Below are positions 17,573 to 38,971 of a DNA stretch of 64,000 nucleotides, one piece after another. This DNA is from Mesostigma viride. Lineage: Eukaryota; Streptophyta; Mesostigmatophyceae; Mesostigmatales; Mesostigmataceae. Every line of letters begins with the position of its first letter. Within the stretch, counting starts at the first letter, position 1. The stretch covers positions 891,298 through 955,297 of the forward strand of contig RPFO01000090.1 in the NCBI GenBank assembly GCA_009746045.1. The letters run 5' to 3'. A program made the position numbers and the translations under genes. Under the pieces are notes generated by a model. The model ran no database searches. It was not told the origin of the DNA and saw only the letters and a list, made by a program, of their open reading frames with translations.

Positions 17573-17674
17573 TATCTATATAGCCCATCATTGAGTGATG
17601 GAGCCGTGTGGGGTACCGGGGAGCCATTCTTGAGTGATGATGGTTGAGTGATAAATTGAGTGATAAAATATTGG
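17573..17674 (+). repeat. Outer terminal inverted repeat, left
   Basis: About 102 bp, reverse-complementary to 35876-35977 with only a few mismatches. It contains four direct copies of TTGAGTGAT (17591, 17630, 17644, 17656). Such iterated motifs near a terminus are typical of recombinase or replication-protein binding sites. Confidence 0.85.
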
Positions 17675-17816
17675 GGTTTTTGGTTTGCTACTGACATCTG
17701 TCACAGTGCAGCCACGCCTTCCCGACCCCTGCCAACCCTGGCTCAGGGGTCGCGGGGCTCTAGGATGCCCTAGAAATGCTGGCATTCGTCACCGGTCACA
17801 CAAAAACCACACCGCG

Positions 17817-17953
17817 TCAACGTGTGTGTGTGTGTGATAGGCAAATTTGCTCAGAGATTTTAAAGGTAGTTCTATACTTATCTGAGCAATTTTGCCTATT
17901 CTGACAGAACCATCAACCACCAACCCAACCACGCCACACACCAAACCACACAC
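17817..17953 (+). repeat. Inner terminal inverted repeat, left
   Basis: Begins TCAACGTGTGTG and is reverse-complementary to 34722-34860, with small differences in a TG-repeat portion. Within it, 17837-17855 and 17881-17900 are themselves inverted (ATAGGCAAA..TTGCTCAGA against TCTGAGCAATTTTGCCTAT), so each terminus can fold into a hairpin with arms of about 19-20 bp and a loop of about 25 nt. Confidence 0.88.
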
Positions 17954-18009
17954 CTGCTTGCCTGCGCGTTCCTGCGGATTCCTGCGCCGTCGCGGGAGAG
18001 GAGCGGGTG

Positions 18010-18387
18010 TCAATCGCTTCTCAGGAGCTGCAGTCGTTCTTTCACTTGGTCAAACGTCAAAGAGGAAATGGATTGTCTGCCGGTGACGCAGCCGGCCATT
18101 ATGGATAAAACGACCAAGTCCTCGCACGCCTTGATAATTTCGTCCAGAGTCGCGTCGTCTTCCAAGGCGCACACAGCAGCCGACGAGAAGATGCGTGGAT
18201 CTTCTATGTGGTCTAATTCGAGATTGTAATTATCCTCGTATGGATCGGGCTTTCCGGCGACGGTGCAAGAAACTCGCGCGACTTCTGCGGCGTTGACGGA
18301 CCTCCGCGTGCCGCTCTGAATGTACCCGCCACTGCCCGGTTTGCAGGCCTCGATGCAATTGAGAATGTCATTCATGGTAACGAACAT
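18010..18387 (-). CDS. Hypothetical viral protein, 125 aa
   Basis: Unrecognised, mainly acidic protein with Cys residues and a helical C-terminal half (TFDQVKERLQLL). The ATG at 18387 is preceded 28 nt upstream by an AGATAA/TTATCT motif shared with other genes of the virus. A second Met four codons later is possible. It is the last gene of the leftward arm and lies next to the terminal repeat. It has no transmembrane segment or recognised domain. Confidence 0.65.
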   Translation of the reverse strand: MFVTMNDILNCIEACKPGSGGYIQSGTRRSVNAAEVARVSCTVAGKPDPYEDNYNLELDHIEDPRIFSSAAVCALEDDATLDEIIKACEDLVVLSIMAGCVTGRQSISSLTFDQVKERLQLLRSD

Positions 18388-18483
18388 GCTGGAAACGTTT
18401 TATAGATTCATGTAAGATAATTTATTAATCGAAATACGATAACATGCACCATTTACACTGAGTCATTACGCGTTAAATCCTGT

Positions 18484-18981
18484 CTACTTGTGATGGCATT
18501 TACACGAATCGAATCCGCGGACCTTCTCGAAGCGCAAGACGACAAGAAAGCTGTCTGCGGAATTAGGTGACACATAGTCAGCGTCGCCGTCGCCGCGGTC
18601 CAGATGAACCATCCGCACCGTCAAACGCCCTCCGTTTCGGAACAGGAATGGGTTCTCGAGATTGAAATAGCTGTGGTCATTTATCATGTTGTAGGATGTC
18701 GCCTCGGTCCCGTAGCATTCGTCAGATACTAACGCCACCTCGTCGTTTAAGTTGTGCGACCCGCCCGTGAAATCCGGCGAGACTAGTCCGATAGTCTTGT
18801 AATTGCCAGCGCCTTCGACATTTGCCATATAAGCAGCATGTGCTCCTCCACGCCAGGTGTCGTCGATTACAGGAGCCCTAGCGTCTGGCTTTACGACAAA
18901 CACGGCCCGCATGGTCGTTTCATCGAACTCTTGTGCCTTCCCAGAGTCTAAGATGACTTGGTAGAAATACGGATAGTCCAT
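18484..18981 (-). CDS. Hypothetical viral protein, about 165 aa
   Basis: Unrecognised protein with alternating hydrophobic and polar residues, suggesting a beta-rich fold; it ends in a Cys/His-rich tail (CKCHHK). An upstream ATG at 18996 is in frame. I prefer 18981 (MDYPYF) because the conserved TTATCT motif (19004-19009) then lies 23 nt upstream, as for neighbouring genes. It stops with TAG. Its position among capsid and adhesin genes suggests a virion component, but this is inference only. Confidence 0.65.
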   Translation of the reverse strand: MDYPYFYQVILDSGKAQEFDETTMRAVFVVKPDARAPVIDDTWRGGAHAAYMANVEGAGNYKTIGLVSPDFTGGSHNLNDEVALVSDECYGTEATSYNMINDHSYFNLENPFLFRNGGRLTVRMVHLDRGDGDADYVSPNSADSFLVVLRFEKVRGFDSCKCHHK

Positions 18982-19025
18982 GGCTTTGTTATACATTTAC
19001 GGGAGATAATAGTTCAACCGGCTAT

Positions 19026-19503
19026 CTACGTTGGTATGGCGGCAGGCGTGCCCCATTTGTGCACTAGATAACCTCGGATCTGTTCGAGCTCGGCCGCGGT
19101 CTTGGCGGTGCTGTAGATCAGGATCTCGCCGGTCCACCCGTCCCAGTTACGAGTGCTCCAATCTATATCCGCGCCAACACAAATCCTTCCTGGATTCTGT
19201 ACCGCCGTACCGGTGTACGCCCCACCATCTCTACCATCAAATCTGGATGGACGTTTTTGGCGTGCTTCCTAGGTCACACGACACTGCCATCACGTGCGCC
19301 CGGCCGTCGTAAAACTCTGCATTCGTGCAGATCGGTTGAGTGGCTCCGTCCGTACCCAAAAGCGCATAAAACTTGTAATCGTCGCAGTTGTTGCAGATGC
19401 CCAGTCCGTAATTACTTTGAGCACCGACAACAAGACCTTTCACGCTACTACCTGACCCGCGAGGGTAAACACTCGGGGTGTTTGATTTTGCGACGACGAT
19501 CAT
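19026..19503 (-). pseudogene. LamG/concanavalin-like lectin domain protein, frameshifted
   Basis: A first frame (19503 to about 19240) reads MIVVAKSNTPSVYP...FYALLGTDG...FYDGRAHVMAV. After a one-base shift near 19240 another frame continues with DGGAYTGTA, WDGWTGEILIYSTA and EQIRGYLVHKWGTPAA, stopping at 19026-19028. The ending GYL-x-HKWG is a hallmark of LamG-like domains in viruses of protists. Open sequence in a third frame upstream of 19503 (LRNGLQSDGFFGVVRK) suggests that the N-terminus is also displaced by an indel. The likely role is binding glycans on the host surface. In this copy the protein would be truncated. Confidence 0.65.
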
Positions 19504-19704
19504 AGTGTTTTGCGGACGACCCCAAAAAAACCGTCGCTCTGGAGCCCGTTACGCAAACTGTAACTGAATTGAAGAGACCGCTTAGAGTTTAAGCTTGTTG
19601 TCGATGGTCGGCGCATTGGTGGTGAAGCACAGTAAGTGCTGGGTCCCCTTCTTGTCCTTCATACCCCGTACCGAAGTCGTGGCGAGGTGGTAAAATTGGT
19701 GTTG

Positions 19705-20697
19705 CTATAGAGCGTCGAAGAGTCCGTTGGGTCGTACCACGCATACAGGGCCGTCGGTGGCGGGGTTGTATGGGGTAAACGTGAACGATAGCGAGTTCGA
19801 AGCTGAGTTGCCGGTCCCGAACACTGTGTCTGTCGCGGCCCCTGCGCCGATGCTGAAGGACGTGGCGGAATTGGCCGTTGTCGCCGTCACGTTGAACGTG
19901 TACGACGCCCCGCTGCCTACCAAATTGGAAGCTGTCCCGTTTATCACCGTGATGTCGCCCAATGCAAAACCGGTCACTGCTCGACTGAAAGTCGCCGTCG
20001 CGGATATGAAACTCCAGGCGGAAGTGGACCCCGCGGATGTCGACAGCGTGACGGTGGGCTGAGGGGAATACGTGAATGACAGTGTGTTGGAAGCCGCGTT
20101 GGCGGTTCCCATCGAAGCGTCCGCGACAACTCCAGCGCCCACATTGACACTCGTGGCGGTGTAAGCGGTCGTCGGCGTCACCTGGAAGGCGTACGACGTC
20201 CCGCTGCCGGTCAGGTTGGCGGCTGTCCCGTTTGTCACCGTGATATCGCCCAACGCGAACCCCGTGACGGACCTGCTGAACGTGGCGGTCACGTCCACGG
20301 GTGTCGAGGATGGCGTCGAGCCCGCGGTCGTCGCGAGGGTCGCCGTTGGAGGGGGTGAGTACGTGAAGACCAATGGAGTCGAGGCTTTGTTCCGTGCACC
20401 CTTCAAGTTAACCACCGCCCCCGCTCCGACGCCTACTGTAGTCGGCGAATATGCGGTCGTTGGCGTCACTTGGAATGTGTACGACGCCCCGCTGCCGTTC
20501 AGGCTGGCAATGGCCCCGTTGACTACGACGATATCGTCTAAGGCGAACCCCGTGACCGGCTGGCTGAACGTCGCTGTAACTGTAATTGGAGACGCGCTAG
20601 GATATGTTCCGGTTGTGGTCGTTAATGTTATGGAAGGCGCAACAACGCGCTTCTTTTTATTAATCAAAGCAGGACATACACCGTAATCGAAAGACAT
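19705..20697 (-). CDS. Secreted or virion adhesin with three bacterial-type Ig-like repeats, 330 aa
   Basis: Three tandem repeats of about 95 residues share the pattern VTATFS-x-x-VTGFAL-x-DI, NGTA-x-NL-x-GSG-x-SYTF-x-VT and the closing SN-x-LSFTYSP. This is a bacterial Ig-like (Big-type) domain. A short basic N-terminus (INKKKR) precedes them; there is no clear signal peptide. After the TAG at 19705 the same frame stays open for about 40 codons to 19582, ending in a Lys-rich tail (MKDKKG...NKLKL). The original protein may therefore have been longer, with a point mutation or compensating indels here. It sits next to a LamG-like gene and is most likely a fibre or attachment protein. Confidence 0.75.
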   Translation of the reverse strand: MSFDYGVCPALINKKKRVVAPSITLTTTTGTYPSASPITVTATFSQPVTGFALDDIVVVNGAIASLNGSGASYTFQVTPTTAYSPTTVGVGAGAVVNLKGARNKASTPLVFTYSPPPTATLATTAGSTPSSTPVDVTATFSRSVTGFALGDITVTNGTAANLTGSGTSYAFQVTPTTAYTATSVNVGAGVVADASMGTANAASNTLSFTYSPQPTVTLSTSAGSTSAWSFISATATFSRAVTGFALGDITVINGTASNLVGSGASYTFNVTATTANSATSFSIGAGAATDTVFGTGNSASNSLSFTFTPYNPATDGPVCVVRPNGLFDAL

Positions 20698-20722
20698 GCT
20701 GCTGATATACTACAAACTGACA

Positions 20723-20893
20723 CTATTTTTTTGAGGTTGGTAACGGATACTGAAATCTCGGCTCCATCAACGGGCCTTTCCTAACCGGCAATCCAGTCGC
20801 CAGACCTTTATCGACCATCGCAGGGGTATCGAAGATCAAGGTGACTCTACTAAACGGATTCGCTACGTATCTCGGATCCTTAAGGTACTCCAT
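20723..20893 (-). CDS. Small hypothetical protein, 56 aa
   Basis: ATG at 20893, stop TAG at 20723-20725. The product is basic and proline-rich (begins MEYLKDPRYVANPF, ends PLPTSKK). An AGATTT motif (20918-20923) lies 25 nt upstream of the start, the same spacing as in other genes of this virus, which supports it being real. It occupies the otherwise empty gap between the capsid gene and the Ig-repeat gene. The role is unknown; a small capsid cement or core protein is possible. Confidence 0.55.
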   Translation of the reverse strand: MEYLKDPRYVANPFSRVTLIFDTPAMVDKGLATGLPVRKGPLMEPRFQYPLPTSKK

Positions 20894-20924
20894 CGTGCGC
20901 TATATGGTAACGACCAGAGATTTT

Positions 20925-22211
20925 TTACAGGTACACGGCCGCCTGCCGCCCGGCGCCGACGTCCATCTTGGCCTCGAGCTCGCAAAACAAGTACGAGGTA
21001 CACGCCGCGCCAGTTCCGTCCACGCGAAGGGTGACGACAGCCGCGGTCCCGCGAAGGTCGAGACCGCTCTGGTACTCGGACCCGGCTCCTGGCATGTTCA
21101 GGTGACAGGCCATGACGAAAAACTTGTCTCGCCATGTGTCGGGTGTAATTCCGTCCTTGGCGCACGACAGCGAGTTTCCTTGGTCGTTGAATGCGCTCAT
21201 AAGATTAGTCCATGCCTCTGTAACTCCCATGCGATACGCGGGGGACTGGTGAGACCCGTTAATATCGAACTGGAACTGCGTGTTTGCGGTCATAGCGGAA
21301 TGGTCGAACATGATATCACCGGCTCCGTTCGCCACGTCCTTGGCAGGGTCGACCTGGATGGCAAGGATTTTACTCGCGGATGCAGAAGAGAGGGTCGCCT
21401 TAATGCTATACGGAGCGGCACTGGTCGTCTGCTTCGTAGACTGCCACGTCTTCCAGCGGAAAGGCAGCGTCCCGCCCTCCGCCAGCCTGGACGCAAAGAC
21501 CTGCGAGACAACGTCCTCCTGGAACCTGTACGTATCGATCGAGAAGTGAATATCATCCAGTTGGAACCCGGGGCCGGTGCAGGCTGGGACGGCAGCGGCG
21601 GGCGCCGCAGCCGCCACTGCCTCTCCGGGGATCATGACACTCCCTTCCATCAACGTAATCCTGATCTCGATCGGAGGGAAAAGGCTGAGATCGATCACAC
21701 GAGGGTCGCCAGAGAGGAACCCGAGCCAGTTGTCAATCACTCCAGGAATGTTCGTATGCTTGGCCTTAGCCGCGTCATCCCTGTCTGTCAGCGCGACGTC
21801 GGTGGTATTGTCCGCGGACCATCCAGACGGTGCTTGAGCGTTGTCGTGACCGACTCCGCCGTGAACAGTAAGCAGGGTCCGATACAGCTGGTGATAGTCG
21901 TTGATGGAGTCCACGCTCTGGCCACCAACCAACACCTCCAGACGCCTGATCAACGACGAAGTGTATCTCGGAAACCTACAGAATCCAGTCGTAGCCGCCT
22001 CGGACGCCTTGAAGTACATGGCAAAACTATGGAGATCGGCAAATCCGCTCGTCGGAAGGCGGACAGCCACAACCGAACCCTGCTTAATACCCGTGTTCGC
22101 GGACAGAGTAGACAACTGCACACGGGACGTCGAGTGCTGGCCGAGAGCCTTTACGATGTATTGCATCGTTTTGGGAATAGCGCGGTTGTACCAAGAACCG
22201 TCAGATGCCAT
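20925..22211 (-). CDS. Major capsid protein (double jelly-roll), 428 aa
   Basis: The 428-residue length is about right for PLV major capsid proteins. Characteristic blocks include CRFPRYTSSLIRRLEVLVGG (residues about 76-95), DYHQLYRTLL, NWLGFLSG-x-PRVIDLSLFPP-x-EIRI, and a C-terminal SGLDLRG with a long beta-rich tail ending in AAVYL. Proteins of this kind form pseudo-hexameric trimers that tile an icosahedral shell. The frame is intact. An AGATAA motif (22238-22243) lies 27 nt upstream of the ATG. It is followed on the same strand by the 56-aa gene and preceded by the 94-aa gene and the minor capsid gene, a normal virion module. The family call rests on these patterns; a structure-based search would settle it. 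Confidence 0.85.
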   Translation of the reverse strand: MASDGSWYNRAIPKTMQYIVKALGQHSTSRVQLSTLSANTGIKQGSVVAVRLPTSGFADLHSFAMYFKASEAATTGFCRFPRYTSSLIRRLEVLVGGQSVDSINDYHQLYRTLLTVHGGVGHDNAQAPSGWSADNTTDVALTDRDDAAKAKHTNIPGVIDNWLGFLSGDPRVIDLSLFPPIEIRITLMEGSVMIPGEAVAAAAPAAAVPACTGPGFQLDDIHFSIDTYRFQEDVVSQVFASRLAEGGTLPFRWKTWQSTKQTTSAAPYSIKATLSSASASKILAIQVDPAKDVANGAGDIMFDHSAMTANTQFQFDINGSHQSPAYRMGVTEAWTNLMSAFNDQGNSLSCAKDGITPDTWRDKFFVMACHLNMPGAGSEYQSGLDLRGTAAVVTLRVDGTGAACTSYLFCELEAKMDVGAGRQAAVYL

Positions 22212-22237
22212 GAGAGAGCGTTGTATACCAGCTACTT

Positions 22238-22243
22238 AGATAA
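22238..22243 (-). promoter_or_regulatory. Candidate late-promoter motif of the capsid gene
   Basis: Minus strand TTATCT within ATATTATCTAAG, 27 nt upstream of the capsid ATG. The same core appears before most genes of this virus (see findings). Confidence 0.5.
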
Positions 22244-22251
22244 TATTCTGG

Positions 22252-22536
22252 CTAGTGGAGGAACTGGCCCAGAAGCGGATTCGCGGCCTTGTGCGCGTCG
22301 ACCTTACGTTCGAGGGTAGACAGCGCGTCCAGTCCGGTTTTCGCGACACGGTACGCCGTCCCGAGGACCGGGGACGCCTCGATCAACTTGCTCGGGACAT
22401 GCCCGAGAGCCGAATCGGCAGCACCCGCGGCCGCCTTCACGAGTCGCGCGCCATGTCCCACTTTCCGGATAGCGTCGCCCGCCACATGTCCGATCTTTCG
22501 CACGGTGTTGACAACCTTTCCAAAATCGAGCCTCAT
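22252..22536 (-). CDS. Small amphipathic-helix protein, 94 aa
   Basis: The start MRLDFGKVV at 22536 is chosen because upstream codons in this frame overlap the minor capsid gene and look non-coding. Two similar helical stretches (VRKIGHVAGD and IRKVGHGARL) are basic and amphipathic. A hydrophobic Ala/Gly segment follows. An AGATAT motif lies 33 nt upstream. Small basic amphipathic proteins encoded next to capsid genes often link the capsid interior to DNA or disrupt membranes during entry. That role is inferred from position and composition only. Confidence 0.6.
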   Translation of the reverse strand: MRLDFGKVVNTVRKIGHVAGDAIRKVGHGARLVKAAAGAADSALGHVPSKLIEASPVLGTAYRVAKTGLDALSTLERKVDAHKAANPLLGQFLH

Positions 22537-22552
22537 TCGTCCTCGTCGTCGT

Positions 22553-23385
22553 TTATAACAGAACGCTGAGATATCTTTCTGGCAGGCAGGACTTCCCGCC
22601 CAGCGCCATGTACCGCAGGACGCTCGCGATCTTCCGCGACTCCACGCCCATCGCTTTTTGTGGCGATATCCGGAAACTGAGCTGAACAACCCAGTCACTA
22701 TACAATTGGACCGGCACGTCGTCCTCGTCCAGCAGGCGGAGACTGATACCGCGCGGGGAATCGCGCATGTGCTGCCAGCGGAGTCTGCGCCTGCCATACG
22801 ATCGGTTCTAGGAACTTGCTAAGGTTCGGGCAACACGCCAACAAACCCCCGTAGACAGCCCCGTGAGTCGCGGACACTACATTACCCCGCACGATGTCGG
22901 CGTACACGTAGACGGCCCTCAGGCGTCCGTTCGTAGCCGGTCGATTGCTCACTATTACGTGTTGGTCGTTGGACGCGTGAACGCCCGGACAAGTCCCAGG
23001 ACACGCCCGACGGACTCGCCGACCGTAGCTGGAACGGCGAACTGGCCGCAAAAGTGTACAGACTGTTCGCGCGGTCGTACGTGACCACGAACGAACTGTC
23101 GATGGTCTGCAAGACCGCCTCGATATTGTGTCTGTTCTCGATCGTCGTCCACGATCCCAGTGGTAGCGAGACAGTGTGGGCGGACTGCATCACCACCTCG
23201 AACGAGCGGTTGGTCTGGTTGATGTGTGTCTGTTCGAATGGGATCGTAAGAAGGGTCAGCCCGACGTCGTGGTAATCCTCGAGCAACCCGGCCGGGATAT
23301 CCCATGTAGGATCATGAAGACTGCCCCTTGTCCTGTTCTCGGTCCTTAGGGTCAGCGTCCGGCACTCCTGTACGTGATCCCTCAT
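22553..23385 (-). pseudogene. Minor capsid (penton-like) protein, broken by two frameshifts
   Basis: The protein is spread over three frames. The N-terminal part runs from 23385 (MRDHVQEC, then DPTWDIPAGLLEDYHDVGLT) to about 22980. The middle part (HVIVSNRPATNGRLRAVYVY ... LSKFLEPIVW) lies in a second frame to about 22790. The C-terminal part (ISLRLLDEDDVPVQLYSDWV-VQLSF) is in a third frame and stops at 22553. The last block, LLDED-x-x-P-V-x-LYSDW with a following hydrophobic strand, resembles the C-terminal end of penton-type minor capsid proteins of virophages and PLVs. This protein would occupy the vertices. The true start may differ, since the first codons overlap the upstream gene by 74 nt. 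Confidence 0.65.
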
Positions 23386-23611
23386 TCTCTGTTATAAGCT
23401 CCGATTTAATCTCGTTGCTGCCGTGGACCACAACCTTTCCCTCGCCACCAGCGAGACCTCGCGCGCTACGTTTAAGCTGTCGCCTTTCCTTCCCAGTCAG
23501 CGGCTTATTCCTGCAATAGAACATCGCCGATTCCAGGAACTCGCGAGGGACGTCGGGGTATAAGATCATCCACTGGGCGATCTGCAGCATCTCAGCATCT
23601 GACAGCTCCAT
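23312..23611 (-). CDS. Hypothetical protein, 99 aa
   Basis: Start at the ATG 23611 (MELSDAEML). The product begins with a helical segment (LQIAQWMILYPDVPREFLESAMFY) and has a basic stretch (KERRQLKRSARG) and a charged tail. No family is recognised. It overlaps the first codons of the penton-like gene, and the two may be co-transcribed. An AGAAAA sequence lies 30 nt upstream, a weak version of the shared motif. Confidence 0.6.
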   Translation of the reverse strand: MELSDAEMLQIAQWMILYPDVPREFLESAMFYCRNKPLTGKERRQLKRSARGLAGGEGKVVVHGSNEIKSELITENEGSRTGVPDADPKDREQDKGQSS

Positions 23612-23627
23612 TCGCACCGAAATCGTT

Positions 23628-24200
23628 TTATGATCTGTTTAGAAAATTTATCCGCGAGCTCGAACCGGTCCCTTTATCGCCCACGGGGACACCTTCAGTC
23701 ACGTGATGTTTATCTCGTAGGTGAGTATCCAACCGCCGACTATCGACAAACGTATTTTTGCAGCCCGGGACCGTGCAGCTGACTCTATCGTTCACATTGG
23801 CGACTCGCACTCTGGGACGAGGCGGCGTCCTCGCAACGGGCTCTCTAGCAGCTGGCGGAGGCGCGGATCCCACGATCTCTACGCGGAGAGGTTCGTCAGA
23901 CCCTGCGCCGAGGACGGCGGCCGGTTCTGGAGCCGGAACGGAGGCCGGTTGGTCGTAGGCGGACAATGGTGGGTAGACTACAGGGCGAGAGTTTGCAGCG
24001 AGAGCCGCCAACAACATCGCGTCCTTAAACCCACGGACTTCGGCGACCTTTCCCCTTTTCGCGGGACGGGTAACGTGGGGCGAGTGGATGACAATCGAGT
24101 TCGTCAGCGCGGTCGTCGCGGCCTTCTTCGGAGGCGCTCGGGGCTTGCGCGGGGCTTTGGACGGTTTCTTAGCTGATCGTTTCGATGTCTTTCGCGGCAT
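23628..24200 (-). CDS. Basic C2H2 zinc-finger protein, 190 aa
   Basis: The N-terminus is very rich in Lys, Arg, Pro and Ala (MPRKTSKRSAKKPSKAPRK), resembling a nuclear localisation or DNA-condensing tail. A Pro/Ala linker follows, and then one C2H2 finger: CTVPGCKNTF followed by DTHLRDKHH (C-x4-C-x12-H-x4-H, about residues 142-166). The likely role is binding viral DNA, either as a core protein or a transcription factor. An AGATTT motif is 24 nt upstream. The frame is intact. Confidence 0.7.
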   Translation of the reverse strand: MPRKTSKRSAKKPSKAPRKPRAPPKKAATTALTNSIVIHSPHVTRPAKRGKVAEVRGFKDAMLLAALAANSRPVVYPPLSAYDQPASVPAPEPAAVLGAGSDEPLRVEIVGSAPPPAAREPVARTPPRPRVRVANVNDRVSCTVPGCKNTFVDSRRLDTHLRDKHHVTEGVPVGDKGTGSSSRINFLNRS

Positions 24201-24228
24201 GGTGTGTTCTTGACATATCTCAAAGATT

Positions 24229-27200
24229 TTAAACGAGCCATGTCACCGCCGCGAAGATCTCTCCGCTCGCCGCTACCCCTGATCTCGAGCGACAGTGCTC
24301 TACTTGCGGCTTGATGTACGCGACTGCTCCGCCGGACCCGAGCGTCTTGTCGACGTGCAGTAGTATTTCGTAGACTCCGTCGGACTCGTCGAATCCGGGT
24401 GCGACACGCCACGAAGGACCCACGACGAGTCTGCACGAGCTCCCGGGCTGATACACGAAGTCGAGAGCACTTGCGAGAAATCTGTACGGGTGCCCGATCT
24501 CCAGCAAGGGCGGCGCTCCGTGCGTGAACTGCACGCGGCAGTAGAACTTGTCTAGCGTCGTCGCGGGAGGGACGAGATTCCCATCGTCGTCGCGGAAACT
24601 CATGATGCCCTGAGGACCAAGTTCCCAGAGCTCGGGCTGCATGTAATCGTACGCAATGGTCCGCAGTCCACGGATAGAAAACGAAACTCGTCTCGCCTCT
24701 CGTGCATCCGTATACGCGCACTCGTCTAGCGCCGTGATCAGCCCAATTTCTGTCGGCCCCTCTCCGAAGAAACGAGCCATCGACAGATCCATGAAAATCC
24801 CGTCAGGACCGCCGACAAGCGACAGAGATCGAACTTCAAACGTCGCCGTGAACAGATGGCCGAATTCGTAGCGGAACGGAGTCGGCATCAGCACAGAGAA
24901 TTGGACATACGGAATATCACCCACGAACCCGTGACCGATCGTCGAGACCCCATTCTCCCAGTCCGGGCCTTTAGACAACTGGATAGGTCGCTCGTTGATG
25001 CGGTATAGTAAGGCGTCATCGTATAGTAGACGGACCTCGAACCGGTTTATCATGGGGCGATCCGGAAGCACGCCATACACCTTTACCGAATAACTGGTGA
25101 GCGGTGTCGCGTGGTTGTATGACGGGAATTCACAAACGGCGTGGATGACGTTGTCTTTTGACGCCGTGAGTTGCGCGCGGTAGAGATTCGTTTCGCCTGG
25201 GACGAGCGACGACGTCATGTAATTGCCTAATATGCTACATTCACGCGGCGACGTGCCCCTGTGAGTGAGAGTTATCGTATCGCCTGATGAAAGGTAGAGA
25301 CCGGTCGGGTTCGTAGTAGTCAAGGAAACGAATTCGGCGTCTGTCGTATCATCAGCCAATTCGCATGCGTTGAAAATCGCCTGGTTGACACTGTCCAAAT
25401 GAAAAACAAGCCTCACCTGACCAGGTGTGTACGGGGCTACGATCCCAGTCGGCGAGGTTGTAAAGATGCCTGACACGGAATTCGCTAGCTTAGTCATACT
25501 GCTCAGACGGTCAGGAGGAAAATACGAGATGTATCGCTCGACGATTCCGTCAGACCGTCGCCGGAACGCAACCCAAAAACGCGTACTGCTTGACCACGTC
25601 GCGTTCAACGTATAATGTGTCGCCGCTTTCCGGTTCTGATACAGACTGATCGTTCCGTTTGTCTTGTCTATACTCACGCCACACGCCGACCACCAATTGT
25701 CGGTTGTTCCTTGGTTTCGCCAGCAATTATGACCGTCTGTGAAAGAGGGGTGGTACTTCCCGGTTATGTCGTTATGGTCCGAGAGCGAGACGAATGCGCT
25801 GCCTGACGGTACAACGAGCTCGAAGCATATTAGGAACGGGCCGTCGACCTCTTCGTCGGTAAACACGACGCATTTGTCAGGTGGCGTGACATTATCCACA
25901 GACAGCGCGTGGAAACTCGACGAAACGGGCGTGTATCTGTATTGGTGATGTGACGGCTGTAGAGTTGTCGCAGTGTCCCGAGAAAACCGCTCGAGGCTGT
26001 TGAACGTGACAACCGCACCAGTGACAGTCACACTCTCTCCGGTGATGTTTGGAGAATCTCTCGGGCACACAAACCGCGGGACGACCTGAACCTCTCGCAT
26101 CGTAGAGTCACCAAGAAGACAGCTCACCATTCCAGCTCCCGTGACACTACCTTTACTGACCCAGTCCACAAAGACCTCGTAATCTGCCGGGGTCTGTGTG
26201 CTATCCCCCCACCCCATGGCATGATCCGCGTACATCTGCACACCTATACGAGCCGGCGCGGACGTCGAGAAGAAACGGCTCGGTGCCCGTATTGCCGGGA
26301 CGAGCGGATCGGTCTTCACCACGCCCACGACGGCCATTTTTCGCTGAGTGGCAGACGTAGTCATCGTCGCGTCGTTGTAGATCGTCACATCGGCCGACAC
26401 GAGCTTCCCATGATCCGCCGGCGTCAATGTGCACGTGACCGCGTCCTCTCCGCGTAGTCCCCCGTCCACGTCAAGCCGAAAACTACCCGCCGCGTCGGTT
26501 AACGCGACATTGTCGACTTTCCACGAGATAGGCAGCTTCCGTTGGTAAGCCCACGGCGTCGTGTTTTTGATTCCTAGCGTGAGAGGAGGCGCGCCACCGT
26601 CGCCAACGACGACCCATGTCTGGTAAGGCGCAGTCGTTTTCCAGTAACTCTCAGTCGGCTGGTCGATCCGCCCGACGTCCCAGGCCGTTAACGGGGAGTA
26701 CGTGCGCGTGATGTGAATACTGTAGGGCATCCGCTGTATTCTGTTCAAGTCTCTCGTAGTCGCGAACCCGATTTGCTCGTAGCTCATCAGTTTGCCGAAG
26801 TAGGCATGGCTCATGCTTCCGAAATGGATGTCATCGATGTATGGACCGTCTACCGTTTGACTCATAACGACGGGGTCGAGCGCGCCGAGGACCTGGACGC
26901 TGTAGACGTTTTTTCCGCTGCTACTGCCTCCGGTGACCGTGTAGGGAAGCCGAATACGGATGTCTTGATTGTTCGAGACTGTGAACGTGGTTCCTGGCGC
27001 GGACAGTGTTCCGTCTTCATACTCTAACACAAACGTCGCTGTCGGATCAGGAAGGGCCGTATACCCGACGCCGTGTTGATCAAATAGCCAGTCGATCTGG
27101 TCGCGCGTCAGAATACGATCCGCGACGATCTGGGACATGCGCGAATATTGGTCCATCAGCCATAGAGACGAGATCCGGATCCAGCCAGCGACGATTCCGC

Positions 27201-27462: not shown

Positions 27463-27502
27463 GGTGTCATGAATTTTATCTAAGATTAAAAGTATAGCAC
27501 CC
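27463..27502. promoter_or_regulatory. Divergent promoter between the two arms of the virus
   Basis: Only 40 bp separate the two start codons. The sequence TTATCTAAGATTAA (27476-27489) contains the shared motif in both directions: TTATCT 22 nt before the plus-strand ATG and AGATTA 21 nt before the minus-strand ATG. It probably drives both arms. Confidence 0.55.
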
Positions 27503-28045
27503 ATGGACCAGGTTCCCGAAGCTCCGGATTCGCCCAAGACCTCTGTCGACGTCGAGGAAGATCCCGCGCCACAGCAGGAAACCCCCAATACAGTGTACAT
27601 CCCGCCTCACCCGCCGAAAGGCCCGAGAGGCAAGCGATTGACGGAAGAGCAGCGTGCGGCACTCCGCGAGAAGATGCGGCCGTACATGCAGAAACGGAAC
27701 GAAGAGCGGGCGAAGAAGCGACAGGAGGAGCGAGAAGCGGAGATTACCAAGCGAAAGGTGCTTGAGAAGGAACTCGAAATCCAGAGGCAGCGTCTGGTGG
27801 AGCTCGAACTCGAGGAAAAGAAGAACAAATACCGAATCGAACGCCTGTTGGCCGCCGAAGAGGTCGCGGCAACTCCCTCGGAGACGCCTCGCCCACGTCG
27901 CGGGAGAAAGCCGAAGGCCGAGGTCGAGGAAGAGGAGCGTCAACGGGCCGCGAATCCACTGCCGGACGTGCGGACAACTACGCCATATGAGCAGAAGATG
28001 CTGGCAATCCGCGCGCAATTACTAGCCAGCTTAAACGACGATTAA
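27503..28045 (+). CDS. Coiled-coil basic protein, 180 aa
   Basis: The centre (about residues 45-115) is a continuous charged helix (LTEEQRAALREKMRPYMQKR, then repeated E/K/R-rich heptads), flanked by proline-rich ends; a basic RRGRKPK patch near residue 135 resembles an AT-hook or nuclear signal. No family is recognised. The frame is intact, with a TTATCT motif 22 nt upstream. It is first in the rightward arm, just before the packaging ATPase (20-bp gap), so it may be a packaging or scaffolding partner. That is inference. Confidence 0.65.
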   Translation: MDQVPEAPDSPKTSVDVEEDPAPQQETPNTVYIPPHPPKGPRGKRLTEEQRAALREKMRPYMQKRNEERAKKRQEEREAEITKRKVLEKELEIQRQRLVELELEEKKNKYRIERLLAAEEVAATPSETPRPRRGRKPKAEVEEEERQRAANPLPDVRTTTPYEQKMLAIRAQLLASLNDD

Positions 28046-28065
28046 TTATCTATTCATTGTAATAA

Positions 28066-28950
28066 ATGACGGTCATTGAGAGCATTCATATCGATACTCC
28101 ACTAGCGAACAAGGATCTGAAAGTCAAATATGCAAAAGCTCGCCAGGTTCCAGCCAACGCGCCACGGCTTCATTTTATCGCCTCGTTCGTGGGTATGCGC
28201 GGGACCGGGAAGACCACTTCAGCTATTAACATGCTGAAGGCGTATTTCGATTTCCATAGCTTTGATAAACTATACCTCATCTCTGGGTCCGCGACAACAG
28301 AGCCAAAGTATAAGCTCCTGCCAACACCCGCCATGTCCATGGAAACGTACACAGACAGCGACTTTAATCAGATGGTAGCGGACATCAAGAAGGACCTCAC
28401 AGAATACGAAGAGTACCAACGCGACATGGCTGTATGGGAGAAATTCAAGAAGGACTTCTTGGATGGCGACAAGAGCGAGGACGACATGGATCTCAACATG
28501 TACCTAACCCTCGACAGGCTACAGTTCAAAGAGCCCCAGACTCGGTTCCGGTACGGTCCTCCCTCGTCCGTCATTTTGATAGATGACATGGCTGGGTCAA
28601 AACTGTATCGTTCGGATTCTAAGGGACCCGTTTCGTCCTTCGCGTTCAAACATCGACACCTCTTGACGTCAATGGTATTCGTCAATCAGAGCTTCACGAG
28701 CGCCGGCGTGCCCCGGTCAGTGCGCGCGAACGTGTCTTTTCTCGTCCTGTTTCGTACGAAGGATCGGCGTGCCGCGCGGCAGATTTCTGAGGAAAGCGCG
28801 GGCCATACGAGCCCCGAGGACTTTCTCGAGCTTTGGGAATTCGCGACGAAAGATTCGCCTCATGATTTCCTTGCCGTCGATAACGACGAACCCAACGACG
28901 CTAAACGGTACAGGAAAAACTTCGACCATTTCCTTGTGATCAAAAAATAA
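28066..28950 (+). CDS. Genome-packaging ATPase (FtsK/HerA type), 294 aa
   Basis: Walker A is GMRGTGKT at residues 43-50; Walker B is ILIDD at 170-174, followed by a NQSF motif near residue 205 that fits the sensor position. The length and layout match the A32-like packaging ATPases of PLVs, virophages and Polintons, which pump genomic DNA into preformed capsids. The frame is intact and the ATG is preceded by TTATCT (28046-28051). It is downstream of the coiled-coil gene and upstream of the AT-hook gene on the same strand. Confidence 0.87.
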   Translation: MTVIESIHIDTPLANKDLKVKYAKARQVPANAPRLHFIASFVGMRGTGKTTSAINMLKAYFDFHSFDKLYLISGSATTEPKYKLLPTPAMSMETYTDSDFNQMVADIKKDLTEYEEYQRDMAVWEKFKKDFLDGDKSEDDMDLNMYLTLDRLQFKEPQTRFRYGPPSSVILIDDMAGSKLYRSDSKGPVSSFAFKHRHLLTSMVFVNQSFTSAGVPRSVRANVSFLVLFRTKDRRAARQISEESAGHTSPEDFLELWEFATKDSPHDFLAVDNDEPNDAKRYRKNFDHFLVIKK

Positions 28951-28975
28951 TCTGTGCTCTATTATATACACGCGA

Positions 28976-29473
28976 ATGGATCTGAAGCAGGCTTACCCCA
29001 ATGCTTTCCACGAGTCTTCGCCAGCTCTCCCATCCATCCGGATCGAGGAGAAAGCGCCCCCGAAGAGTTCGTACCAGCACAGGCTTGATAGGCGAGAGCT
29101 CGTTCTCAATGTATCTACACTCGTTCGGTACTTGACCGGGGCCAGGATCTCCACGAAGACGCACGAGAGGTTGGCGGCGTTCGTGCGAGGGTGTGGATAT
29201 GACGGCGAGCTTCCGCCGACACACACCGGCATCGGGCACGGGTGTCGACAGAAATTAATGTCCATCATTGCCACGAAACGAAAGCCTCGTAACCCTCCTC
29301 CTCCGCCCCGCTCTCCCCGACCACCGAAAATTAAAAAGGAAAAGATTCCTCACACCCCTAAGAAACGCGGGAGACCGGCTGGGTCGAAAGACACGAAGCC
29401 GCGGACTCATAACATCGACCCCGCGACAGGACGACCACGACCATGGGGACGGCCGAAGAAATCGAAGCTGTAA
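28976..29473 (+). CDS. AT-hook DNA-binding protein, 165 aa
   Basis: The C-terminal third is strongly basic and proline-rich, with two AT-hook-like cores: KKRGRPAGSKD (about residue 130) and a closing GRPRPWGRPKKSKL. The N-terminal part has a conserved-looking helical segment (TLVRYLTGARISTKTHERLA). AT-hooks bind the minor groove of A/T-rich DNA, so it may organise the genome or help the recombinase encoded next door. TAATCT lies 23 nt upstream. The function is inferred from motifs. Confidence 0.65.
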   Translation: MDLKQAYPNAFHESSPALPSIRIEEKAPPKSSYQHRLDRRELVLNVSTLVRYLTGARISTKTHERLAAFVRGCGYDGELPPTHTGIGHGCRQKLMSIIATKRKPRNPPPPPRSPRPPKIKKEKIPHTPKKRGRPAGSKDTKPRTHNIDPATGRPRPWGRPKKSKL

Positions 29474-29723
29474 TAATCGTTTATATGTGGAAATTTCCGT
29501 GGAATTCCGCTCTAGCGGCCGCGGAAGCTATCGAAGTTAACTTAAACAGGGTCGTGTCCCACCGACCGAAGGTCGGTTCCTCTGAAGCGAAGACGCGGCT
29601 TCGAATCCCGGTGGAAGCAACTTAAATCGTATTTTTGCAATAAAAACGACGAATTACCATTTTTTGCATTAAACGCTCGTTCACATCCAAATTAATTTCT
29701 TTGCATAGGATATACTGAGTCTC
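29474..29723. other. Intergenic region before the recombinase, with hairpins
   Basis: Contains a hairpin with 7-bp arms (ACCGACC/GGTCGGT, 29561-29577) and a second GAAGC/GCTTC stem shortly after. A TTCGAATCC string resembles a tRNA T-loop, but a full tRNA does not fold. An attachment site or a terminator is possible. Confidence 0.35.
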
Positions 29724-30989
29724 ATGGTCTCAAGGACAGCGGACGAGCTCCGAATGCGACGAGAAGCGCAGGCTAGATACCGGCAGAAACACCCGGACCG
29801 TGCAGCCTTACAAGTGATGCGCTCGATGGCCAAGAAAGACGCGTGGATGCCTACCGAGAAATGGCTCCAGAAGCACGGGACAGACTGCGACGAGGTAAAG
29901 TTGATCCGGCAGAACGCGGACCTCCCCGAGCGGGATTGTAAGTCAGCGGACACTCGCCCGGTCTCGCGAGCACCCACGAGCAAACTGTGGAGCCTCGCCG
30001 AGGTCATGGAGACCGCCCAGCAAGTCAGGCCGGAGAACCAGCCCGTGGCTACCGTGCAAGGAGACAGGGTCGTGAAGACGGCTAAGGGGGCGACAGTGGC
30101 GACGATTAAGCAGTACGTCGGACGCGTTGGACAGATCCTTAACGCTCTTGGATGCAGCCGGACAGAGCCCGTTACGTGTCTCCTGGACGTCGATAAAGTC
30201 ATCGCGACAATCCAGAACATGAAGAGGGGAGACGCGACAGGAGCGAGAACGGCCCGCGCTAATCTTGCGGCGGCTATTAACGGAATCAACGAAATTTTCC
30301 CATCGTCTCGCCAACTCCCGGCAACTGTCGTCGAATCGTACAAGACTCAACAGGCCATCGAGCAGGAAGGGCGACTAACCATCGACGCTTACGTCAGCGA
30401 GAACGTGCCGCCGGCTTACAATTTCAAGACGCTCCAATCGATCCACAAGTCCATCGCAGACCCAAACAGCGACGAGAAATTGATGGGGTACCTTTACCTC
30501 AGCGGAAAGAATCTCCCGCCAACTCGGTACAACTATCACGATGTCAAATTCGTGAACGATGAGAGCGAGATAGGACCACACGAGAACGCGTTCATCGTCC
30601 CCGAGAACCGGTTCATCATTCGACACCACAAGACGGCGAAAGACCTCGGGGCCATCGATTTCGTCGTCCCGCCGTCGATGAAAGCGTTCCGGGAAATCCT
30701 CAAAGCCCGCTCGACGAACGGGAAATGGCTGTTCCCGGCCGGTAGAGGACGGGGTCATATCAGCAAATCCGCGTTTGGCGAGCGATACCGCGCGACTTAT
30801 CACGGAATCCTCAACACTCGGCGGGCGTTCGTCACGGCGTTCGTGAAAAGAGCGACGTCCGCAGAACGGATCAAGCTCGCAAAAGGAATGGCACATTCCC
30901 CGGCGATGGCGATCCGGTACGAGCGGAACGATCAATTGGATCCCGCGATGTTGGAGAAAGCAAAAGGAATTGAAGATGAAGACGTTTGA
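29724..30989 (+). CDS. Tyrosine recombinase (integrase), 421 aa
   Basis: The N-terminal ~210 residues are basic and helical, as expected for an arm/core-binding domain. The catalytic domain shows the expected set: Arg268 in NLPPTRYNY, Lys303 in the HHKTAKDLG hairpin, Arg366/367 in NTRRAFVTAF, His391 in KGMAHSPA and the nucleophile Tyr399 in IRYERN. These residues cut and rejoin DNA through a phosphotyrosine, so this enzyme is the likely agent that placed the virus in the chromosome. The frame is intact. The motif ATTTCT, a weak form of the shared element, is 24 nt upstream. Several PLVs carry such recombinases instead of an RVE integrase. Confidence 0.85.
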   Translation: MVSRTADELRMRREAQARYRQKHPDRAALQVMRSMAKKDAWMPTEKWLQKHGTDCDEVKLIRQNADLPERDCKSADTRPVSRAPTSKLWSLAEVMETAQQVRPENQPVATVQGDRVVKTAKGATVATIKQYVGRVGQILNALGCSRTEPVTCLLDVDKVIATIQNMKRGDATGARTARANLAAAINGINEIFPSSRQLPATVVESYKTQQAIEQEGRLTIDAYVSENVPPAYNFKTLQSIHKSIADPNSDEKLMGYLYLSGKNLPPTRYNYHDVKFVNDESEIGPHENAFIVPENRFIIRHHKTAKDLGAIDFVVPPSMKAFREILKARSTNGKWLFPAGRGRGHISKSAFGERYRATYHGILNTRRAFVTAFVKRATSAERIKLAKGMAHSPAMAIRYERNDQLDPAMLEKAKGIEDEDV

Positions 30990-31018
30990 TCTGTCGCTAT
31001 CTGAAATAGAATTGTCGC

Positions 31019-31041
31019 CTTTTAATACGTAGTATTAAAAG
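31019..31041. other. Near-perfect palindrome downstream of the recombinase
   Basis: Arms CTTTTAATAC and GTATTAAAAG (10 bp each) surround a 3-nt loop. It lies 30 bp after the recombinase stop. It could be a recombination core site, a replication origin or a transcript terminator. Confidence 0.6.
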
Positions 31042-31178
31042 ACTCGAGTTTTTCGGCTATTGAGAAAGTCGAATTGTATTATTGATTAATAAAATCCATT
31101 CCTTCCAATCAGAAAAAAAACCAGTCTCGTTTCGACCAGAAAAAAAAAATCTAAGCCTACAGGTATACAACTTTGATC

Positions 31179-34100
31179 ATGACCGCGTCCGTCTACACTG
31201 GAGCAAAATTGACCAGAACCGTCCACGGTCGAACGTGGTTTGGTGGGTCGAGGGTCGACGACAAGGGGCCGAAGGACCGCTGCATCGAGGCCGCGAACGA
31301 GGCCGGGCATTCCTACATTGCTGCCCGGGATATCGGGCGCGGACCGAAAGAGTACACGCATTACCGAGACGCTGAAGAATTCGCGGCGATTCGCGAGGAA
31401 TGCATGCGGAATGTCCGGACTCGGACACTGAACGAGATCATTCGCCCAGACCAGCCGCCGTGGGTATACGTCGATCTCGACGACCGCGTGGGAACGGACC
31501 GCGAGCGTATCGACTATCCGCGCCATTTCAAGCGACTGCACGACGCGTTCGTGTTCGATGTTCTAGGGATCGAGCCAGAACGGTTCCAATACAACGTCTC
31601 GACAGCGACACGCGAGAAGGATGGCTTCATCAAGATTTCGTATCATATCGTTGTCCGCGGGCTGGTACTGTCTGACATCGACACGAGACAGTATTGGTGC
31701 CAGACCTTTACTCGATACATCCGCGAGCATCTGCTGGACCCCGACTCGTCTCTCTACACTGACGCCAACATGCTCCTAAGCACCGAGCACGCTTCGGCGT
31801 ACATGGAGCAGAACATTGAAGAGATGCTGGCTAACCCCGGCGATTTTTATGACGACAAGGAGTCCAGTTAATGGTCGATGATCACATCTATGGTAAGGAC
31901 TGGTGCTTCAGGCCGTTGGCATGCACAAATACGGGGACACGACCTCTGCGAGTCTCAGGATATGCGAGGGGTCTGACGACGTTCGCGAACACTCGGTCAT
32001 CGTCTACCCCACGAACAATCTCGACGACGCCGAGATAGTAAGCGCTCCGGCTTCGTGGTACGCCCAGAAAGGCTCGGAACGCAAAAAGGCGTCCCAGTAC
32101 AGTCCTCGCGGGCACGGGGCGGGCAGCGAGCAAATCGCGAGGTCGATCGAGGCAATGGCGAAGGTTTCGCCGGGTAGTCGGATCATCAATGTCGAGGAGC
32201 ACGCCGGGGAGGACGGCCGGACATACTACATGTCCCGCTGGACCGTCGACCCAGAAGTGCCGTGTATCGTGTGCAAGAAGGATCGCCCCCATAAGAGCGC
32301 TGGTCACGGCCCGAGGGTGTGCGAGTACTCGGACGGAAGGGTCACCTACTCGTGTTGGAAGAAGGGCCCCAAGCACGCGGAGTGTATCATGGACAGGCGC
32401 GAGTTCGTCGCGGAGAGTGTCCCGTTTGGCGAGACGTACTGCACAGAGAAGATCAAGCCTTTTGACGTCGACGGTCTGGTCGAGGTTATCAGAGGCCGCG
32501 ACAAGGGTCACAAAGTCACCCACTTTGTCCAGTCGAACTGTGGGACTGGAAAATCAGAACGTGTCCGAGAGATGGTGAACGAGCTTGTCCGCAGGATCCC
32601 TGATGTTCGCATACTGTGCATCGTCGCCAACATCAGTCTCTCGAAGGAAGAGGACCGTAATTATAAGGCACTCGGCGAGGTGGGGAAGTGTATCGTCTGG
32701 GAGGATTCCGCGTTCCGGATCCTCTCCCAAGACCCGCGGTTCCGCCACTATCTGGACAATCGCGGAGGGTATATCAAGGACGACCGCGTGCTCATCGTTC
32801 TGAACTCCATCCTTCGTCTCGCCAGCTCGAGTTTTGACGTCGTGATCATGGACGAGATTTACAACACGTTGACAGCGCTATCGGGTCTCCATCTCAAGAA
32901 CAAGCGAGAGGTCATTGTGCGTCTTATCGAGATCTTGGAGCGCGCCAAGGTGCTTATAGCGCTTGACGCGACCATTACAGCGAAGGTCTACAATTACATC
33001 GCGCACTACCGACCAGTTGACGGGATCAGGGCATCTATGAACACGTTTAAGCGCCCTACTAATCGCGTGTTGAAGTGGGTCGACATCGATTCTAAGAAGT
33101 GTTGGAAAGCGGTCTTTGTTGCGGAGATTGTTGCTGAGTGCAAGAGGCGGTTGCATGCCGGGGAGAAGCTGTTCTGTCCAATGTCCGCGGCGTGGGCTGT
33201 TCCGGCCGTATGCGAGGGCTTGAAGGACATTTTGTCCACAAAGAAGTGGAAATCGTACACCAAGGACACGCCAAAAAAGGATCTAGAAAGCGGCGCTAAT
33301 TCGGCATGGGCTGATCTCGACTTTCTCATTATTTCGCCGACCATCACCGTCGGAGTCTCGTATACTATGCACACTTTCGACAGCATGGTGGCTGGTTTTA
33401 TCAACGCCCCAGGATACGCCGAATACACGACCATGCTGCAACAGATGTTCCGTGTCCGTCACCTGTGCAAGGGGGAGATGACAATCATCTATCGAGACTC
33501 TACTACCCTCTGTCGAGGCTGACACCAACTTTGACCAGATAAAAAAGACGACGGTCGACACAGAGGCCAAGTTTCTGAACCTGATGGCGAAGGACAACGC
33601 CGATGTGATTGCTTCGTGGGGTGAAGATGGTAAGAGGAAATTCGACCCAAGCTCGCCACTACTCAACCTCTTCTGTCGCAACCTGCAGGACGTTGCAGTT
33701 TCTCGCAGCCACTTCAAGCCGAATCTGATCAGGATGCTAGCAGAGGATTATGACGTAAAGATGGAAAGGGCGGACGAGAAGGTGGATCACACAGACGCCC
33801 CACCACTACCAAAGCGAGAGGACGCGGACGAGGGGCGTGCCGTTTATATCATGGAGCACGAAGAATACGTCGCACTGAAGGATCGATGTGACGCAGGCGA
33901 GATTCTTACAGCATTCGAGAAGAGGCTGAAGAACGTCTACGAGCTCGTGGAATTCAGTTACCAGATCCCGCGAGAACGTAGAGATGAGGAACTTGCCGGG
34001 CTCCTCGAGAAGGATAAATGCCGGACGGTTTACCGAGCTGTCCGGCAGCACTCGCGAGCGACAGAACTGGGCAAGGATGGGTACCTTGCGAACGTCCTTG

Positions 34101-34612
34101 AGGCAATGAGGAAGACTAATTCGCTCTTTGACCTCAGTGAATACAAAACAGGCCGTGACGCGAAGACTCTCGCGGTTGCTCTACATCTATTAAAGGGCAG
34201 TGGGATAGAGGAGTTCGTCCTAGATCGCGAGAGTGCCAGGACCATGACGATCCCTCGCGACAAGGCGATCGAGATTGGGAATAGGATCGATCGCGAGATC
34301 ATGGGGAGTCAAACATTCATGCGCGCGGTGTTTGGGTATCAGAGGAGGGCAAAGGGGGCTGGCGGGACGCTGAGTTTTGCTCAGTGTTCGAGCCTTATTA
34401 ACACCCTACTCGCTAGCACACTCAACATTTCAGCAGGCGGCACGCGGATGTACCATATGAAGGAGCAGGACCTAGAAATATCAAAGGCTGGTGTCCTCGA
34501 CTTCTGCGAGAGGTACCAGCCTGGCTGGTGGGGCAACGAGGCCGAACTAGCATCACTCCGCCACCAGGACGAGACGCATGGAAGCATGGACGAGGGCTAT
34601 CATTTCAGATAG
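31179..34612 (+). pseudogene. Primase fused to an origin-binding-type superfamily 2 helicase, frameshifted
   Basis: A single gene of about 1,140 codons now lies in several frames. The first part (31179-31871) has archaeo-eukaryotic primase features: VYVDLDD and KISYHIVV (S-x-H). Near 31862-31930 the frame shifts twice; DHIYGKDWCFRPL in one frame and KYGDTTSASLR in the next look like the third primase motif. The second part (to 33522) has Walker A GTGKS (32542-32556) and the box VVIMDEIYN, resembling herpes-type origin-binding helicases. After another shift near 33522 the C-terminal part (33584-34612) is helical and unrecognised. It would start and unwind viral DNA replication. AAATCT lies 27 nt before the ATG. 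Confidence 0.72.
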
Positions 34613-34721
34613 ATAGACCCATCACGCCGCGTCTCGTGGTATAGTATTAGATATTTTGTGTTGCTGTGACACCAAAAGCCATCCCGCTCCTCTCATGCGA
34701 CGGTGCAGGGTTTTTTAGAGG

Positions 34722-34860
34722 CGTGTGTTTGTTGTGTGGCGTGGTTGTGGTGATGGTTGATGGTTCTGTCAGAATAGGCAAAATTGCTCAGATAAGTATA
34801 GAACTACCTTTAAAATCTCTGAGCAATTTTGCCTATTCACACACACACACCTCGCACGTT
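34722..34860 (-). repeat. Inner terminal inverted repeat, right
   Basis: Reverse complement of 17817-17953. It contains its own hairpin: arms AATAGGCAAAATTGCTCAGA (34774-34793) and its reverse complement at 34818-34837. Confidence 0.88.
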
Positions 34861-35089
34861 GAAGAGACCTTGTGTTTTTCGCTGCCAGCCAAGCGCCGCG
34901 CCGGTACCGGGGATACAAGCCAAGTTTACCACCGCCCTTATACCGCCATCAGCCACTGACAAAACGCATGACACTCACGCAGCACTGGTCGATGCAAGCA
35001 GACGTAACGTGACCTTGCTAAAATTTTGATATGATGGCCGGAATGCATTATGAACCAACCTGCAGTCTAGTGAATGCTAACAGATAGCC

Positions 35090-35656
35090 ATGGCGTCACG
35101 AAATGCTGGGCCGTGTGAGAAAGCGCTTGCGTTTATAGGGAAAACACTTGACGAAATTTGTGACAAGCAAACGGCAATTGAAAACAAGCTTTCTCGCCTG
35201 TCTGAACAACTAGAAGGCATTGTCGCACCATCTGGCGAGGCCGGTGATTACTCGCCGACCTGCGAGGTGCTAAAAGTCCACGATGCTGCTTACGATGCCG
35301 TTGACAGGAAAACTCCAAAGGTCCTTGTCGAATGGGTCTACGAAAAGGGGTCATCCAAGCCGAGGAAGCTCGAAGAACGGTGCGAATGGAAACGCCTTGA
35401 CGAATGCGCCGATTGCGTAGACAAGGTCGAGGATTTCATGAAATCTTTCCAGAAGTCGAAGCACCAGCCCGGAATATCCGCTTTCTCCCTCATCAACGCG
35501 TGGTCAGATGCCAGGAGAGGGTTTGCAGCATACAAGAGCGGGTCAAACGACAAGAAACGGGAGCTCGACGAGAATGAGAACGAGGACGATTTCGCCAACA
35601 AGAGGCAGAACCTCGCACTTGGGTCGCAGCAATCAGGCTACACAGCTAACATTTGA
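35090..35656 (+). CDS. Hypothetical protein, 188 aa, between inner and outer repeats
   Basis: Starts at an ATG in good context (GCCATGG). The N-terminal half has a short coiled coil (DKQTAIENKLSRLSEQLE). The middle contains KVLVEWVYEKGSSKPRKLEE and several Cys residues. The tail is Lys/Asp/Glu-rich with a possible nuclear signal (KKRELDEN...NKRQN). No family is recognised. It lies outside the inner repeat but inside the outer one. It is therefore either cargo of the virus or the gene of a separate small transposon into which the virus inserted. Confidence 0.55.
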   Translation: MASRNAGPCEKALAFIGKTLDEICDKQTAIENKLSRLSEQLEGIVAPSGEAGDYSPTCEVLKVHDAAYDAVDRKTPKVLVEWVYEKGSSKPRKLEERCEWKRLDECADCVDKVEDFMKSFQKSKHQPGISAFSLINAWSDARRGFAAYKSGSNDKKRELDENENEDDFANKRQNLALGSQQSGYTANI

Positions 35657-35875
35657 GCACGCCCCTTTCATGGGTTGCCTGATCTGATACGAACTTGTTT
35701 GGTTGTATTACGACATTGTTAGCAACTTCGGTATCAATCAAACCCTGGCCTAGCTTTCCAAGGGCCGTGGCAACTCCAAGCCTGACAATGAAATTAGCCA
35801 CGTTGCCATCTGAGTCAATACTGGCAAGGGTCTGGAATCACAACTGACACATGCTTCAGTAAATAATTACGAAAT
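35657..35875. other. Non-coding stretch before the outer right repeat
   Basis: No gene or motif is recognised. Confidence 0.4.
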
Positions 35876-35977
35876 CCAATATTTTATCACTCAATTTATC
35901 ACTCAACCATCATCACTCAAGAATGGCTCCCCGGTACCCAACACGGCCCCATCACTCAATGAGGGGCTATATATATA
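35876..35977 (-). repeat. Outer terminal inverted repeat, right
   Basis: Reverse complement of 17573-17674 with few mismatches, including the four TTGAGTGAT motifs. It is followed within a few bases by the TTAA at which piggyBac copy 2 inserted. Confidence 0.85.
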
Positions 35978-35981
35978 TTAA

Positions 35982-38837: not shown

Positions 38838-38971
38838 TTAAAAATATAATTACTTACAGCAGAGTGAAATCACTCAAACCAAAGCAAACGCCCAGCTATA
38901 AACCTATATACAGAGCCATGTCAAAGCTCTATACTACGATAAGACCAATGGAAACGCCTAACGGGAGGAAC

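Follow-up and report, generated by a model that had tools for sequence, protein, structure and literature searches.

The question raised by this locus is whether a block of virus-like genes in the genome of the alga Mesostigma viride is an integrated virus and, if so, to which group it belongs. The window, which is the whole stretch of DNA analysed here, covers 64,000 nucleotides (assembly GCA_009746045.1, contig RPFO01000090.1, positions 891,298 to 955,297). It contains an element of 18.4 kb (17568–35980), which is enclosed by imperfect terminal inverted repeats. We interpret this element as, very probably, an endogenous Polinton-like virus (PLV) integrated in a streptophyte alga, with a probable tyrosine recombinase. 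It is a further PLV of an already known type, and its replicase type and terminal sites are its unusual features.

Overall organization and assignment

A first-pass annotation, made from the sequence alone, had described a block bounded by inverted repeats with two divergent gene arms. Repeat alignments and the list of open reading frames (ORFs) bear this out, with leftward ORFs at 18010–27600 and rightward ORFs at 27503–35656. The defining trait of PLVs is a PgVV-like capsid protein; they have capsid, minor capsid and ATPase genes in common and possess no protease, and PolB, rve and protease are commonly lacking (PMC4642659). PLVs lack a maturation protease and, save one exception in the founding study, an rve integrase. 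The present assignment was made by capsid fold, packaging ATPase, size, terminal inverted repeats and the absence of protease and rve profile matches. The size and the repeats agree with those of PLVs (15–30 kb, terminal inverted repeats), and the interpretation as an integrated PLV-type element is supported.

The 18 ORFs of the element were scanned with Pfam profiles. The rve integrase, a trait of Polintons/Mavericks, gave no match in them. Neither did a maturation protease, an absence of profile matches only, nor the protein-primed PolB of Polintons/Mavericks, of which divergent forms can escape such models (PMC12220804). The first reading had likewise seen none of these three genes, and their absence is usual for PLVs.

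Capsid, ATPase and probable recombinase

The capsid, ATPase and recombinase genes and one neighbour are as follows.

20925–22211, minus strand: double jelly-roll major capsid protein, 428 aa (relatives, structure model comparison)
22252–22536, minus strand: protein of 94 aa, encoded upstream of the capsid gene (52% identity to the N-terminal part of Mesvir1/20951)
28066–28950, plus strand: A32-type genome-packaging ATPase, 294 aa (profile matches and relatives)
29724–30989, plus strand: probable tyrosine recombinase, 421 aa, with R268, K303, R366, H391 and Y399 (alignment with relatives)

The first-pass annotation had made its reading depend on a double jelly-roll match of the 428-aa protein, and the structure comparison of the capsid model gave such a match. 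The highest Z scores were obtained against giant-virus capsids. The 294-aa protein is a packaging ATPase as in PLVs; its Pfam match lies just below the Pfam cut-off, and further comparisons support it. In the recombinase, the five listed residues are invariant in all three aligned sequences, but the HxxR motif lacks its first His. We take these positions to be the putative catalytic residues (R, K, HxxR, H, Y) of a probable tyrosine recombinase. Only two relatives of it were found among 5717 candidates.

The first-pass annotation had raised the possibility of a new PLV lineage. Relatives are present in other assemblies and among Mesvir1 gene models, a label that we presume to stand for Mesostigma viride. 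The capsid protein is related to Mesvir1/20951 and 14565 (55% and 68% identity), the ATPase to Mesvir1/14566 and the recombinase to Mesvir1/15817 (42% identity). The 94-aa protein has its counterpart in 20951 (E 2.2e-29), the gene model of which fuses that part to a capsid protein. These models are known as predicted proteins only. They are not identical to the genes in the window and therefore represent other copies or another strain. Mesvir1/14565 and 14566 are numbered consecutively, yet they diverge unevenly from the window (68% over 56% for the capsid protein, 95% over 85% for the ATPase). This unevenness may point to an exchange of modules or to rapid evolution of the capsid protein.

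No match to the capsid protein was found among phage records, and searches of PDB sequences with profiles of the capsid protein, the ATPase and the recombinase yielded no convincing match. Scans of IMG/VR with the ATPase, the capsid protein, both alignments, the helicase piece and the recombinase alignment each returned between 3 and 40 pattern matches, none of which was confirmed as a relative, and near records may be omitted from these results.

Terminal repeats and candidate recognition sites

The termini carry the following features.

17568–18007, no strand: left terminal inverted repeat (alignments, resampled controls)
34683–35980, no strand: right terminal inverted repeat, the inner and outer parts of which lie about 0.9 kb apart (alignments)
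17591–17664, plus strand: four TTGAGTGAT iterons, at 17591, 17630, 17644 and 17656 (word count in window)
35886, 35898, 35912 and 35951, minus strand: four mirrored TTGAGTGAT iterons of the right terminus (word count in window)
17836–17900, no strand: left palindrome in the left repeat, counterpart of the right one, with two mismatches between its 20-bp arms
34773–34837, no strand: right palindrome with perfect 20-bp arms and a 25-nt AT-rich spacer, a candidate origin or recombination site
35090–35656, plus strand: ORF of 188 aa between the inner and outer right repeats (ORF list)

The outer arms (17572–17707 and 35843–35978) are 136 nt long with 86% identity, and the inner arms (17837–17946 and 34727–34836) are 110 nt long with 95% identity. 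Gapped alignment extends them to 17568–17734 with 35822–35980 and to 17803–18007 with 34683–34879. The right repeat is about 0.9 kb longer than the left one, and the extra part holds the 188-aa ORF. The local score of the inverted repeat is 249, whereas the best of 200 first-order resampled controls scored 37.

The word TTGAGTGAT occurs nine times in the window, where 0.38 occurrences are expected, and eight of the nine belong to the termini. The remaining one, at 38869, is located 28 bases past the far end of a transposon that adjoins the right terminus, and it may indicate that the virus extends that far. The corresponding continuation of the repeat amounts to an 8-base match that was equalled in 84 of 2000 shuffles; it is not significant and is not claimed.

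The right palindrome is predicted to fold with a z score of −8.12, and none of 200 shuffles was equally stable. Herpesvirus origins bound by UL9 have a similar appearance, namely a palindrome with an AT-rich spacer. The iterons and palindromes are candidate recombinase and origin sites, and the palindrome may serve as an origin.

Primase-helicase and frame changes

Two genes, listed here by their pieces, appear to be broken.

31173–31871, plus strand: primase-like (AEP) piece with the motifs VYVDLDDR and SYHIV, start uncertain
31903–33522, plus strand: SF2 helicase piece of the UL9/CyRepA1 type (profile and structure-sequence matches)
33584–34612, plus strand: piece in a different frame, probably the C-terminal part of the primase-helicase (ORF list, by eye)
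22570–23385, minus strand: candidate minor capsid or penton-like gene, apparently broken (likely reading through three frames, by eye)

The helicase piece matches Herpes_ori_bp above the Pfam cut-off (E 1.1e-16), CyRepA1 plasmid replication proteins below the cut-off of that model (E 9.3e-23), and four chains of UL9 structures (best E 1.8e-6). The primase-like piece had no match in profile scans or in the PDB sequence search; we take VYVDLDDR and SYHIV to be putative AEP motifs. Likewise, the penton-like identity is presumed from a sequence pattern. That candidate found no database match in profile scans, and the PDB sequence search gave one chance-level match. Of the genes named in the first-pass annotation, the capsid, ATPase, recombinase and helicase genes are supported to differing degrees, whereas the penton-like protein and the primase piece lack profile or database support.

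By eye, three or more frame changes are seen in the primase-helicase gene (31173–34612) and two in the penton-like candidate. The frame changes represent either decay or sequence error, and decay seems the better explanation. Introns were considered as their source and dropped after inspection by eye. An intact provirus whose frame changes are sequence errors is less likely. In its favour, the ORFs of the capsid protein, the ATPase and the recombinase and the 1123-aa ORF run uninterrupted; against it, at least five frame changes, by eye, fall within two genes, and identity between the outer terminal repeats has dropped to 86%. The gene set was originally called nearly complete. It is complete in outline, but the wording is too strong for an element in which the primase-helicase and the penton-like candidate are apparently broken.

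Right terminus and integration

The right end is joined to a transposon that is not viral.

35978–38841, no strand: piggyBac-like transposon adjoining the right end, with TTAA at both ends (alignment, profile match)

The right repeat runs into the TTAA at 35978–35981, which is the start of this 2.86-kb element. Its ends read TTAACCCCTMAACCGTC, and it has a partial match to DDE_Tnp_1_7 (E 1e-7). An inverted second copy is present at 2526–5405 (97.8% identity over 2883 columns). Two points weigh against the piggyBac assignment: the transposase match spans no more than about 45 of the 349 positions of the profile, and the second copy has no directly adjacent TTAA at one end. With the transposon beginning in this TTAA, the right virus-host junction is hidden.

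The longest word common to the flanks, with the later or neighbouring transposon taken as the right flank, has 7 bases; it is AT-rich and within the range of 500 shuffles, so that no target-site duplication was recognized. Duplications of 5–7 bp were reported for three integrated elements with a tyrosine recombinase or rve (PMC7805220). Because they occur among entities with either enzyme, their absence is not diagnostic.

GC content at the third codon position (GC3) exceeds GC1 and GC2 in 13 of the 17 tabulated element ORFs, equals GC1 in two and is below GC1 in two. It ranges from 0.59 to 0.71, near to and somewhat lower than the 0.72–0.76 of three host retroelement ORFs.

Comparison with other viruses

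The most serious alternative as to origin is a miniature relative of giant viruses, similar to mriyaviruses, that became endogenous. The capsid model is closest to giant-virus capsids, and some mriyaviruses likewise use a primase with a UL9-type helicase, the combination of AEP and SF2 helicase being found in a small subset of Yaraviridae (PMC11253617). However, giant-virus capsids may lead by default if the solved structures include no PLV capsid. The element of 18.4 kb falls short of the 35–45 kb of mriyavirus genomes, VLTF3, HUH and RuvC gave no Pfam match in the element ORFs (divergent ones could be missed), and terminal inverted repeats with a recombinase are described features of PLVs. 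We consider such an origin improbable. Still less credible is a virus genome or contaminating contig misjoined to algal DNA: the frame changes could be assembly errors and the case is judged from assembled sequence, but the right terminus meets the transposon TTAA base by base, a second transposon copy lies in the window, and the GC3 values approach those of host retroelements, so that misassembly is unlikely and the chromosomal provirus proposed at first reading is supported.

The PLV reading also agrees with known tyrosine-recombinase PLVs (among them PgVV, the integrated PLVs of Guillardia theta and the cryptophyte clusters C1/C2). They have in common with the element a size of 15–30 kb, terminal inverted repeats, no protease, a double jelly-roll capsid protein, a packaging ATPase and a tyrosine recombinase, the last being probable in the present element (PMC4642659, PMC12220804). 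In contrast, their helicase is the S3H of TVpol-S3H or AEP-S3H, whereas a UL9/CyRepA1 (SF2) helicase is found here, and the present recombinase has only the few relatives mentioned above. A primase joined to an SF2 helicase, the domain combination proposed here, was described for Prim-S2H PLVs of Rhodomonas lacustris (cluster C2, 20 elements) and for a single MELD virus (PMC12220804); the PLVs belong to another host group. With herpesvirus UL9, the likeness is in the helicase sequence, and the palindrome around the AT-rich spacer may offer a binding site here; the primase-like piece preceding the helicase is a difference.

PLV capsid genes are already known from streptophytes, including the PgVV group (PMC10120064). 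The excerpts of two Mesostigma genome papers (PMC6947507, PMC7027972) mention no such element, and one of these studies filtered virus-matching scaffolds. No paper in the library searched joins Mesostigma viride with a polinton-like virus, or Mesostigma with a virophage; the supplementary tables of a large PLV survey may list such elements.

Proposed life cycle

In the life cycle that we propose, the primase-helicase would open an origin, perhaps at the terminal-repeat palindromes, and the genome would be copied by a polymerase of the host or a helper virus acting in trans. The A32-type ATPase would fill virions built of double jelly-roll capsomers, and the tyrosine recombinase would insert a circular form into the chromosome. 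The present copy shows apparent frame changes in two or more genes and has the piggyBac-like transposon in its right-end TTAA.

A more specific model is speculative and rather unlikely: a PLV lineage of streptophyte algae with a herpesvirus-like start of replication, in which the UL9-type helicase and its own primase recognize the terminal palindromes and the iterons serve the recombinase. If this were true, the palindrome, present once per terminal repeat, would provide two origins per genome, and a protein-primed polymerase would be unnecessary. 

Independently of that model, the element ties a PLV with a rare replicase type to the base of the land-plant lineage, and the terminal palindromes offer a concrete candidate site for replication start in PLVs without PolB.

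Other ORFs and flanking DNA

The remaining ORFs of the element are as follows.

18010–18387, minus strand: 125 aa, no assigned function (ORF list)
18484–18996, minus strand: 170 aa, no assigned function (ORF list, profile scans)
19705–20697, minus strand: 330-aa candidate surface protein with three Ig-like Big_12 repeats (Pfam E 5.5e-32, three stretches)
23312–23617, minus strand: 101 aa, no assigned function (ORF list)
23628–24200, minus strand: 190 aa, C2H2-like motif seen by eye (ORF list)
24229–27600, minus strand: 1123 aa, true start may lie inside (ORF list, profile scans)
27503–28045, plus strand: 180 aa, highly charged (ORF list)
28976–29473, plus strand: 165 aa, basic and proline-rich (ORF list)

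The 1123-aa ORF is, at a guess, a candidate fibre or spike. The Big_12 repeats are also seen as DNA repeats; the gene encodes a candidate surface protein of bacterial type in a virus.

No further copies of the PLV element were found within the window, and Rfam at gathering thresholds gave no match in it. The flanks carry Gypsy-type and LINE-type retroelements. The Gypsy-type retrotransposon (7524–13765; reverse transcriptase, RNaseH, integrase and chromodomain) is split among several ORFs, and the LINE-type reverse transcriptase (38972–44137) lies near a RING finger ORF, in DNA whose GC content reaches 75%. About 500 bases to the left of the PLV, a long 8-bp tandem repeat (16335–17093) reads WMDG or HPSI in several frames.
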